50,288 nt of DNA from Nitrospinota bacterium (GTDB lineage Bacteria; Nitrospinota; Nitrospinia; Nitrospinales; VA-1): the NCBI GenBank assembly GCA_009873635.1, contig WAHY01000001.1:1-50288 (forward strand), written 5' to 3'. The notes under the pieces were generated by a model, which made no database searches, had not been told where the DNA came from, and was given only the letters and a program-made list of their open reading frames with translations. Made by a program: the position numbers and the translations under genes. Positions 20,275 through 23,846 of the stretch are shown here, piece by piece; within the stretch, counting starts at the first letter, position 1, and each line of letters opens with the position of its first letter.

Positions 20275-21336
20275 TTAGGAAATTTCAAAATGTCGAATGG
20301 ACTCGACAATCGATGAAGTAGCGCGAGAACTGATATACTTTTGCTGGTCATATCCCTTAACCATATCCCACCCGTTTTCAGGATATTTCTCAATCAATGG
20401 CAGTGCAACATCTTCAAGCATCCACTGCCCATGGCGGATATCCTCTCTAATATGAAGATCCCAATAGCTGGTTCTTTTATCACCTAAATTTAAACGGTGA
20501 CCCGCCATTTTAATGTTTTGGAATGCAGCAGGCACAGAAACTTCTGTGTATAATAAACCGCCAATATATCGTAAGAAGTTCTTTTTTCTCTCTGATAGAA
20601 AAAAACTATGGTTAATATTTGCCAATACTTCCCAGGGAACACAATCAAAATATATTTCCGGCCTGGAATCCATATCACACTCTTCTAACATGGTCGCAAA
20701 ATGAGTAGAGTGCTTTCTAGAGAGTTTTCCGCTTCCATATTCTTCCCATAAAATTCTGGCCAACATTGTCTGGACCTCGTTCCCGACTCCCCCCAACATT
20801 CGTGAAAGTTGGCTTGCCTCCACCAGACCATCAAGAGAGGCAATTGCCAGAAAAAGTTTATATCCAGATTCAGAGATTTCATCACGGATATATAGACCGT
20901 CCGGAGAAAGATTGGGCTGCAAGTCTTCTTTAACACGTGTTCTTAAAACATCAATAAGGTTTACACGATCTATTCTGGTGGAATTATCATCTTCCCAATT
21001 CTGCCATGCATCTTCAATTTCCTTACGCAAAGTAAACAGAAATACCGAGTCCTCGTTTGAGTAATTATCCAATGGGTCATACCAAAAGAACTTCAATCTG
21101 TTTATGCGGTATAAGATCCGTTGCAAAAACAAGTGCGCCTGGGAACAACCTTCGTTTTCAGTGAATGCATCTGAAAAAAGAGCTTTTACTTTAAACTTTA
21201 AGTTTTCAGCCCTATTCGGGTTTTGGGAAAAATACAGATCCAGATTACCTAACTCCAATAAATCTACAAATTCATCCTCCAATTCCTGATGTGAATATTC
21301 AAGGGTTACAAATTCTTCTTGAGAATAAAGTCTCAT
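20275..21336 (-). CDS. Heme-oxygenase-like diiron oxidase (iron-containing redox enzyme family)
   Basis: A 353-residue protein. The C-terminal ~170 residues show the full six-ligand diiron pattern of the HDO superfamily (UndA, BesC, SznF): Glu199 in WEEYGSG, His209, Glu265 in LLYTEVSVPA, and His295, Asp299, His302 in LHIREDIRH. The N-terminal ~150 residues are an extra helical region. Such enzymes use O2 for desaturation, C-C cleavage or N-oxygenation of small amino-acid-like substrates. It is divergent, across 200 bp, from an EgtD-type methyltransferase, suggesting a shared pathway. Substrate unknown. Confidence 0.8.
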   Translation of the reverse strand: MRLYSQEEFVTLEYSHQELEDEFVDLLELGNLDLYFSQNPNRAENLKFKVKALFSDAFTENEGCSQAHLFLQRILYRINRLKFFWYDPLDNYSNEDSVFLFTLRKEIEDAWQNWEDDNSTRIDRVNLIDVLRTRVKEDLQPNLSPDGLYIRDEISESGYKLFLAIASLDGLVEASQLSRMLGGVGNEVQTMLARILWEEYGSGKLSRKHSTHFATMLEECDMDSRPEIYFDCVPWEVLANINHSFFLSERKKNFLRYIGGLLYTEVSVPAAFQNIKMAGHRLNLGDKRTSYWDLHIREDIRHGQWMLEDVALPLIEKYPENGWDMVKGYDQQKYISSRATSSIVESIRHFEIS

Positions 21337-21536
21337 AGGGTTGAAAATACAAGGTTAGAGTTAGGTTTTGTTTGTGCCATAACGAAAAACCAATTCACAC
21401 CTTAGCCATGGCAAGAGTCGAACCACAGTGATTTCTTAAGCAATAAAAAAGATGTAAAAGGGTATAGAGATAAGTAATATAACAAACACACATAACAAGG
21501 TCAAACGCACCAGACAATGTGAAGGAGAAATCTTAA

Positions 21537-22526
21537 TTGTTTGAAACAAAAATTCTAAGTTCCGCGCCAGATACATTTTCCCCTGAGCAACAGTTTGCTG
21601 CCACGGTAGATAAAGGCTTATCACTGGATAACAAGTGTCTGCCATCATGGTTGATTTTTGATGAAACAGGAAGTGCAATTTTTAAAAAAATAACAGAGCT
21701 CGCAGGCTACCTTCCTGCCGCTTGTGAGTTTGAAATTATAAACAATCATAAAACTAATATCGCGAAACTTATACATAATGATTGTTTCAACCTGATTGAA
21801 CTGGGCTCTGGAGACGGATGCAAAACCCAAATTCTCATTGAGCATTTTTTACTAAGCAAACTAAACTTTCACTACTTTCCTATAGACATTTCTAAAGGTG
21901 CCATCAACAACCTTGTTCACATTCTAAAAAAGAAACACGCCAACTCAAATCTGAAGGTTACTGGACTAGCCGGTGATTATTTCGAAGGATTAAGATCTAT
22001 CACGAAAAGCGAATCAAATCAAAACCTGATCCTGTTTCTGGGAGTTACCTTAAACAATATGGATCCACACAATTCACGTTCATTTCTCAACAACTTGAAA
22101 AAATCAATGGGGCAAAAAGATTTTTTACTAATCGGGTTTGATCTTATGAAAGACCCCAAAATACTATACTCTGCCTACAATAATGAGTTGTTTGAAGAGT
22201 TTAATCTACACATGCTGGACCGCATCAATCAGCGACTTAAGGCAAACTTCAATAAAGACCACTTTGTGCAACAAGGGCAATACAATCCAATAACACGTAC
22301 AGTTGAAAGCTACCTATACAGCACACGAAATCAAAATGTTTATATTAAAGAGTTAGATAAAGAATTTCATTTTAGAGCCTGGGAGGCGATGAAAACCGAG
22401 CAGTCTCTTAAATACACACTTGAGGAAGTGGAAAGTCTGGCTCTTGAAAATGGATTTGAAGTTGTTGAGAACTTATTTGACGTTAAAAAATACTTTGTGG
22501 ATTCTATTTGGAGGATTGCTCGCTAG
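21537..22526 (+). CDS. EgtD-family SAM-dependent amino-acid N-methyltransferase
   Basis: A 329-residue DUF2260/EgtD-type enzyme. The SAM motif ELGSGDGCKT is at 88-97; GVTLNNMDP and DLMKDPKILYSAYN match conserved EgtD segments; the late TEQSLKYT keeps Glu288 and Ser290, equivalent to the histidine-binding Glu/Ser of EgtD. The substrate-pocket motif usually like EYYPTRxE reads GYLPAACE (57-64), losing a tyrosine and the arginine. EgtD makes hercynine from histidine; this one may use another amino acid. TTG start at 21537 with SD GAAGGAG about eight bases before. No EgtB is nearby. Confidence 0.85.
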   Translation: MFETKILSSAPDTFSPEQQFAATVDKGLSLDNKCLPSWLIFDETGSAIFKKITELAGYLPAACEFEIINNHKTNIAKLIHNDCFNLIELGSGDGCKTQILIEHFLLSKLNFHYFPIDISKGAINNLVHILKKKHANSNLKVTGLAGDYFEGLRSITKSESNQNLILFLGVTLNNMDPHNSRSFLNNLKKSMGQKDFLLIGFDLMKDPKILYSAYNNELFEEFNLHMLDRINQRLKANFNKDHFVQQGQYNPITRTVESYLYSTRNQNVYIKELDKEFHFRAWEAMKTEQSLKYTLEEVESLALENGFEVVENLFDVKKYFVDSIWRIAR

Positions 22527-22539
22527 ACAGGAGTTTAAT

Positions 22540-22887
22540 TCAAGCAGCTAACCGCTTTACAACATTCAATCGCAGACAAGTACGGGCCTTATTATTTTCT
22601 TTCGAGAAACAAATCTCGTAAGATCCTAATTTTGAAAAAGCAATGTCAAAGGATTGTCCTGGCAAAAACTTTGAAACAGAAACTATCTCTTTGAGAAAGG
22701 GTGGTTTAGTTACTGTCAAATCATATAAATTTGTTTGAAAGGTATTGCGCACTGCTATATTAGAGTTTTGATAAATCTTCATAGGCACTTGCCTCGATAG
22801 CTCTAGTGATATCGCTTGGGGTTTTGCCTGTCCTAAGCTCACAAAAACTCCAAATGTTAGCAACAAACAAAAAATAGTGGTGCGCAT
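22540..22887 (-). CDS. Small exported beta-sandwich-like protein
   Basis: A 115-residue protein with a signal peptide (MRTTIFCLLLTFGVFVSLGQA) and a body rich in beta strands. The end, PGQSFDIAFSKLGSYEICFS then ARTCLRLNVV, recalls the last strands of cupredoxin-like folds, but the usual His/Cys/Met copper ligands are not evident. The two cysteines may form a disulfide. It is tail-to-tail with the EgtD-type gene and divergent from the SUMF1-type gene. No family recognised. Confidence 0.65.
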   Translation of the reverse strand: MRTTIFCLLLTFGVFVSLGQAKPQAISLELSRQVPMKIYQNSNIAVRNTFQTNLYDLTVTKPPFLKEIVSVSKFLPGQSFDIAFSKLGSYEICFSKENNKARTCLRLNVVKRLAA

Positions 22888-23051
22888 AACTTACCTCTCG
22901 CATAAAAATAAAGTTGATCAAGAGTATAGCGGTAAGTAGCAGACACCCAATATCGGCAAAAAACCCTTTAAATAATAGGCGATAACTTATTATATTATAA
23001 GTGTTTCGCCTATATAAAATAACTTTCAACTTACTCTACATGTTACATTTT

Positions 23052-23846
23052 ATGAAATCACAACCTAAATACATTGGAGAACTGTCGTTAATTATTTTTT
23101 TTTCTTTGTTAATTATGGCTACACCCATCTTTGCCCAAGAAAGTAACACCACGCAGAAGCAATCGATCTCTCCTTCCACCGGCATGAAATTCATTCAAAT
23201 TCATAGCGGTTGCTTCAGTATGGGTACTGAAGATGGTTTCCGTTTTCAATCTCCCGTTCATAAGGTATGTGTGGATGAGTTTTATTTAGGTATATTTGAA
23301 GTCACGCAGGCCCAATGGATGAAATTCATGCCAAATAATTATTCAAAATTTTCTGGAGACTCTCGACCTGTAGAGAGAGTCTCATGGAATGATGCCAAAA
23401 GTTTTATCAAAGAACTAAACAAAGCTGAAAATACCAACAAATACCGCCTGCCAACTGAAGCAGAATGGGAATATGCGGCAAGAGGCGGAACCAAATCTCA
23501 ATTTTACTGGGGGGATAAAATTGATAATAGTTATGTGTGGTATTTTGGAACCTCTAATTATAAAACTCACCCGGTGGGGTTGAAAAAACCAAACCCTTTT
23601 GGACTCTATGATATGTTGGGGAATGTGTGGGAATGGGTTGAGGACTGGTTTTCCAAAGATTATTTTCAACACAGCCCAGTTCAAAATCCAAAAGGCCCTG
23701 AAACTGGACGCTTAAAAGTCAAGCGAGGAGGATCGCAGGCAAACCTGATCAGTCATATAAAGTCACATACCCGATATCGTGCTTTACCAGATCATCGACA
23801 TCATATTAATGGGTTTAGAGTTGCTTATACACACAATAAAAATTAA
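23052..23846 (+). CDS. Exported SUMF1/FGE-sulfatase-fold protein
   Basis: About 264 residues from ATG 23052 (in-frame GTG 23001 and ATG 23040 also exist). A signal peptide ends near PIFAQ. The body has the formylglycine-generating-enzyme fold: MGTEDGFR, VCVDEFYLGIFEVTQAQW, PVERVSWNDAKSFI, YRLPTEAEWEYAARGG, PNPFGLYDMLGNVWEWVEDW, and GFRVAY. The C-terminal cysteine pair of true FGE is absent, so it is not expected to make formylglycine. EgtB carries this domain fused to DinB; here the domain stands alone and is exported. Role unknown. Confidence 0.85.
   Translation: MKSQPKYIGELSLIIFFSLLIMATPIFAQESNTTQKQSISPSTGMKFIQIHSGCFSMGTEDGFRFQSPVHKVCVDEFYLGIFEVTQAQWMKFMPNNYSKFSGDSRPVERVSWNDAKSFIKELNKAENTNKYRLPTEAEWEYAARGGTKSQFYWGDKIDNSYVWYFGTSNYKTHPVGLKKPNPFGLYDMLGNVWEWVEDWFSKDYFQHSPVQNPKGPETGRLKVKRGGSQANLISHIKSHTRYRALPDHRHHINGFRVAYTHNKN

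Follow-up and report, generated by a model that had tools for sequence, protein, structure and literature searches.

The locus considered here raises the question of whether two divergent genes, one encoding a heme-oxygenase-fold diiron oxygenase (HDO) and the other a predicted EgtD-like N-methyltransferase dependent on S-adenosylmethionine (SAM), form a biosynthetic pair of their own, or whether the methyltransferase simply makes hercynine. The genes lie between positions 20,275 and 23,846 of the window, i.e., the whole analyzed stretch of 50,288 nucleotides (contig WAHY01000001.1, assembly GCA_009873635.1) from a bacterium of Nitrospinota, a phylum of marine nitrite oxidizers. Its genome (2.62 Mb, 95% complete), the nearest named relatives of which are Nitrospina and Nitrospinaceae metagenome-assembled genomes, contained a single PF14518 gene and a single PF10017 gene, both at this locus. 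A sequence-only reading of this DNA had placed four genes here, and all four were confirmed at the same positions (Table 1). It had also proposed a pathway to an N-methylated, oxidized amino-acid product without EgtB; the co-occurrence and adjacency of HDO and EgtD, the lack of EgtB and the non-ordinary character of this EgtD were upheld, whereas the part given to a SUMF1-fold protein was not, this neighbor being probable background. It was concluded that the oxygenase/methyltransferase cassette is real, conserved and undescribed; no published account of an HDO/EgtD-like pair was found in a literature search that had most subscription papers outside its reach. A conserved module is defined in cyanobacteria and in major marine nitrite oxidizers, about whose stress chemistry little is known.

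Pairing of HDO with two methyltransferase families

A total of 168 HDO loci were found, of which 80 were kept; 48 named loci came from Nitrospinota and Nitrospirota, including one labelled Ignavibacteria. The genome sets comprised 60 genomes (the source genome and 59 relatives), 147 Nitrospirales genomes and 194 evenly sampled genomes of cyanobacteria. The EgtD-like gene was divergent beside HDO at 43 of the 48 Nitrospinota/Nitrospirota loci, with the remaining neighbors varying. Both genes were present in 31 of the 60 genomes and HDO alone in seven, and both cases of EgtD alone were fragments at contig ends. Among the Nitrospirales, 20 genomes contained both genes, one contained HDO alone (a fragment at a contig edge), none contained EgtD alone and 126 contained neither. 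All 19 intact paired-type EgtD genes of Nitrospirales adjoined HDO, and the gap was 119–146 bp in 18 of these genomes and 393 bp in one. Thus, the pairing of HDO with the EgtD-like gene far beyond chance was confirmed, and the co-conservation in relatives by which the earlier proposal could be judged was borne out in two phyla. It should be noted that two loci grouped at odds with their labels, probably owing to binning or naming errors: L111 (Ignavibacteria) inside the Nitrospirota clade and L099 (Nitrospirae SZUA-226) with Nitrospinota.

The cyanobacterial HDO was approximately 51% identical and had no paired EgtD alongside. Directly beside it, at 18 of 29 cyanobacterial loci, was a gene for another SAM methyltransferase, 230–270 aa in size, related to PrmC/HemK and carrying an NPPY motif. 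In the cyanobacterial sample, HDO and the PrmC-like methyltransferase were carried by the same 16 genomes (0 of 178 otherwise) and were adjacent in 14 of the 16; in genome G409, the two genes stood side by side, both cut short. Since no HDO position in the alignment separated the EgtD-paired group from the cyanobacterial one at 90%, HDO probably catalyzes one and the same reaction in both. Most HDO-bearing cyanobacteria also had a canonical EgtD elsewhere, located beside EgtB in the two loci inspected. A second, unrelated methyltransferase (cluster 11) was found upstream of HDO in six cyanobacterial loci. One cyanobacterium with the HDO studied here also held an SznF-like HDO with a cupin domain, flanked by genes for a PRMT-like methyltransferase on one side and a Rieske protein on the other (L215:880-3861).

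Iron ligands of HDO and acceptor pocket of the EgtD-like enzyme

The HDO consists of an N-terminal helical domain followed by the HDO domain; it matched the superfamily profile PF14518, carried the E-H-E-H-D/E-H ligand motif and had a heme-oxygenase-like helical fold in the model. Its ligand set was 3His/4carboxylate (E173, E199, H209, E265, H295, D299, and H302), and all seven residues were invariant in the alignment (81 of 81 homologues). The six ligands named in the sequence-only reading were all correct, whereas the seventh, E173, had been overlooked; in the alignment, it corresponds to the additional glutamate that SznF uses as a ligand. According to a review, a seventh ligand is present in about 25% of HDOs (PMC13108848). 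The sole PDB sequence matches were SznF (the best), RohS and HrmI, and UndA, BesC and CADD were not among them. Fold matches of the AlphaFold model (predicted local distance difference test, pLDDT, 80) ranked HrmI, RohS, SznF and then FlcD, with UndA, CADD and BesC far below the N-oxygenases; the HrmI match spanned the full HDO length (template modeling score, TM, 0.72/0.75; E 3e-8). SznF, RohS and HrmI are N-oxygenases. Consequently, this HDO is closest to characterized N-oxygenases by both sequence and fold, and since the closest solved HDOs are of this kind, N-oxygenation is the leading but unproven guess for its reaction. The protein stops after the HDO domain, PF14518 being the sole domain found and a C-terminal cupin being absent; SznF has a cupin domain, and N-nitrosation is therefore not expected here.

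The EgtD-like enzyme shares the PF10017 family and the SAM site with EgtD (hercynine synthase), but the window copy and the copy of the Nitrospirota locus L092 scored 244 and 265 bits, respectively, against TIGR03438, both below the curated cut-off of 290.9; a second, canonical EgtD in the L092 genome scored 338 bits. In the phylogenetic tree, the paired EgtD copies formed one clade (support 100/100, branch 1.8) separate from canonical EgtD, although long branches meet in this tree and the exact placement of the clade is less sure than its separateness. The substitutions M252S and T213F (M. smegmatis EgtD numbering) were found in all paired copies (42/42 each) and Y39F in 34/42, with Y56, N166, Y206, E282 and S284 retained. 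M252 and E282 line the imidazole pocket of EgtD, and their exchange is reported to give tryptophan methylation. In the M. tuberculosis EgtD–histidine complex, Y56, N166, Y206 and S284 touch histidine, the alpha-carbon of which is packed against Y39 (PMC8593015). The partly kept and partly altered pocket, together with the separate clade and the score below the cut-off, suggests that the acceptor is an alpha-amino acid of histidine-like shape other than plain histidine.

Nitrospirota with the paired EgtD also held a second, canonical EgtD elsewhere, near a class-V pyridoxal phosphate (PLP) enzyme gene (EgtE-like, under the EgtE cut-off) and a betaine-type ATP-binding cassette transporter. No EgtB (TIGR03440) match above the cut-off was found in the 60 genomes, the only matches being SUMF1-domain proteins, and an EgtB elsewhere in these genomes was rejected as a candidate; the EgtB noted earlier as missing beside this EgtD is thus missing from the source genome and the 59 relatives alike. 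Nor did the source genome reveal the EgtB/EgtE set with which this EgtD would simply make hercynine. Judged by sequence, the paired EgtD is other than an ordinary ergothioneine EgtD, and simple hercynine formation is probably not its role, given its separate clade, its low score, its altered pocket and the canonical EgtD kept in Nitrospirota besides. This would place an EgtD subfamily outside the ergothioneine pathway, where annotations as "histidine N-methyltransferase" are probably wrong. SUMF1-domain matches to the EgtB profile numbered at least 13 in nearly every relative.

Candidate two-step pathway and its alternatives

In nitrite oxidizers and cyanobacteria alike, the side-by-side genes suggest that a methylated, oxidized small molecule is made in two steps by a route not yet described. 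In such a two-enzyme biosynthetic cassette, the HDO would bind two irons via its 3His/4carboxylate set, activate O2 and oxygenate an amino-acid-like substrate, most likely at nitrogen, like SznF, RohS and HrmI. The EgtD-like enzyme would then use SAM to methylate, once or more, a nitrogen of an acceptor shaped like histidine; this acceptor would most likely be what HDO produces or a close derivative of it. In cyanobacteria, the same HDO would act with the PrmC/HemK-like methyltransferase in the place of EgtD. Taken as a whole, this reading (most likely N-oxygenation by HDO, followed by methylation by the EgtD-like or PrmC-like enzyme) has, in our estimate, an even chance of being correct. We infer an N-methylated, oxidized amino-acid product, which is made likelier by the N-oxygenase kinship and by the separate case of cyanobacteria, where HDO is independently paired with a methyltransferase. 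Only tentatively can it be proposed that an HDO product common to nitrite oxidizers and cyanobacteria (a reactive, oxygenated amino-acid product, probably N-oxygenated) had two methyltransferase families recruited to it independently. The outcome would be a widespread metabolite, which might serve as a protectant, a metal ligand or a signal, and a new activity of EgtD, the acceptor being either modified histidine or something other than histidine. The pairing with two unrelated methyltransferases offers a directly testable handle for deorphanizing an HDO subgroup.

As regards the order of steps, HDO without EgtD was found in Nitrospinota (G004, G022 and G028, 96–97% complete, and others), and one such HDO (L084) fell inside the EgtD-bearing clade of the HDO tree, which suggests that EgtD was lost there and HDO kept. 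The paired-type EgtD was never seen intact without HDO among the Nitrospinota relatives and Nitrospirales genomes. Because HDO occurs without EgtD and an intact EgtD never without HDO, the order of HDO first and methyltransferase second is favored. This order has a precedent in FlcE followed by FlcA in fluopsin C biosynthesis (PMC11363339), and the reverse order in streptozotocin, where N-methylarginine is formed before SznF acts (PMC10849742).

Comparison with known systems revealed both similarities and differences. SznE/SznF of the streptozotocin pathway likewise unite a SAM N-methyltransferase with a 3H/4C HDO, but the partner there is PRMT-like, whereas here it is EgtD-like. In fluopsin C biosynthesis (FlcE/FlcD/FlcA), N-hydroxylation by an HDO also precedes SAM N-methylation (PMC11363339), but five genes, with two HDOs and two lyases, are involved, in contrast to the one HDO and one methyltransferase of this locus. 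HrmI and RohS, although the best fold matches, belong to natural-product pathways with lysine or 2-aminoimidazole substrates and have no known EgtD partner, and HrmI has a 3H/3C set.

Several points weigh against N-oxygenation followed by methylation. In structural alignments, identity to SznF, RohS and HrmI was just about 20%. Nor is E173 decisive for the N-oxygenase type, since HrmI does without the seventh ligand. The product of canonical EgtD is a quaternary amine, and no later N-oxygenation is possible at that atom. The PrmC-like methyltransferase was not adjacent to HDO at 11 of the 29 cyanobacterial loci; in one of these cases (G082), it was located elsewhere, beside an HDO relic. The Fisher p of the pairing (~1e-23) overstates independence, since the sampled genomes are related; the case for pairing does not depend on it, because adjacency persists amid changing neighbors. 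Finally, HDOs that share their ligands can differ in chemistry, and the reaction is not determined by the ligand set (PMC13108848).

Since HDO chemistry is diverse and unpredictable from ligands (PMC13108848), the same two-enzyme pathway might contain an HDO that subjects an amino acid to cleavage, decarboxylation or desaturation (in the manner of BesC, UndA or FlcD-like enzymes), and methylation might come either earlier or later than this step. FlcD was the next fold neighbor behind the N-oxygenases, and the HDO of Binatia and Pyrinomonadaceae shares an operon with a PLP decarboxylase. However, two of the invariant ligands of this HDO are not found in FlcD, and UndA, BesC and CADD stood well below the N-oxygenases by fold and were missing from the sequence matches; this explanation is regarded as less likely than N-oxygenation. 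It is improbable that the HDO is instead a protective protein that handles peroxide, reactive oxygen species or iron rather than producing a small molecule, and that the methyltransferase is merely a co-regulated stress gene. Such a protective role has been proposed for DtpC of Acinetobacter baumannii, an HDO that shields dried cells from oxidative damage and requires its metal ligands to do so (PMC13232832), and many cyanobacterial carriers are terrestrial, judging by their names. By description, DtpC resembles the present HDO in that it has the six core ligands but has been assigned no chemistry; it is, however, encoded in an operon with the catalase katE, and no methyltransferase was reported (PMC13232832). 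Here, two unrelated methyltransferases track HDO almost perfectly, which suggests a shared metabolite, and even for DtpC a protective small molecule is still allowed by its authors (PMC13232832).

An alternative ergothioneine (or selenoneine) route, in which the EgtD-like enzyme makes hercynine and HDO replaces EgtB, would agree with the lack of EgtB in Nitrospinota and with the retention of the imidazole-facing E282 and S284. It is nevertheless highly improbable, as pair-bearing Nitrospirota and most HDO-bearing cyanobacteria hold a canonical EgtD as well, beside an EgtE-like gene in the former and beside EgtB in the two loci inspected in the latter, and the paired EgtD falls under the TIGR03438 cut-off and carries M252S and T213F. 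That HDO and EgtD are chance neighbors is refuted by the counts for Nitrospirales, where 19/19 were adjacent and co-occurrence was almost perfect while other neighbors changed.

Neighboring genes and other HDO contexts

The SUMF1-fold protein and the small protein were taken as exported from their hydrophobic N-termini. The FGE-sulfatase/SUMF1-fold family had 29 members in the 2.6 Mb source genome; a SUMF1-fold gene neighbored the pair at 7 of the 48 loci, Nitrospirota and cyanobacterial HDO loci had no such neighbor, and the chance of one lying this near the pair was approximately 6%. The inclusion of the SUMF1 fold in the system, as proposed earlier, was therefore abandoned, and this protein was rejected as a pathway partner, being probable background. 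The small protein, present at 14 of the 48 loci, had a cupredoxin-like fold with two invariant Cys and was found between EgtD and the SUMF1-fold gene in part of Nitrospinaceae only; it was rejected as an enzyme, having no conserved His, and is probably outside the cassette.

Table 1. Features of the HDO locus and the cyanobacterial methyltransferase genes
Feature	Position	Strand	Profile match
HDO, 353 aa	20275..21336	-	PF14518, 95 bits (cut-off 28.9)
Divergent intergenic region between HDO and EgtD-like genes, 200 bp	21337..21536	strandless	
Promoter-like site toward HDO (TTGACC, 17 nt, extended -10 TATATT)	21476..21504	-	
EgtD-like SAM-dependent N-methyltransferase (predicted), 329 aa, TTG start	21537..22526	+	PF10017, 275 bits (cut-off 23)
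Small cupredoxin-fold protein, putatively exported, two invariant Cys	22540..22887	-	
SUMF1/FGE-sulfatase-fold protein, putatively exported	23001..23846	+	PF03781, 165 bits
PrmC/HemK-like NPPY methyltransferase, ~236 aa	L124:9294-10118; L121:5659-6369; other cyanobacterial loci		

In the intergenic region, the promoter-like motif toward HDO (TTTGACC-N17-TGTTATAGT) was visibly kept in most Nitrospinaceae, and a palindromic block was noted in the HDO leader, two species being without it. An RNA element in this region was rejected (no Rfam family near the gathering score; fold z -0.6).

Elsewhere, in a Nitrospinota genus with HDO only, a gene with a formyltransferase domain followed HDO at a distance of 28 bp (L208:4797-5573) or ~800 bp (L207:5098-5913). 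In Binatia and Pyrinomonadaceae (L134, L135 and L138), HDO opened an operon with a family 2 glycosyltransferase and the PLP decarboxylase. These few loci hint that the HDO product may be open to several kinds of processing. A DDAH-like gene was located upstream of the HDO operon in L134.

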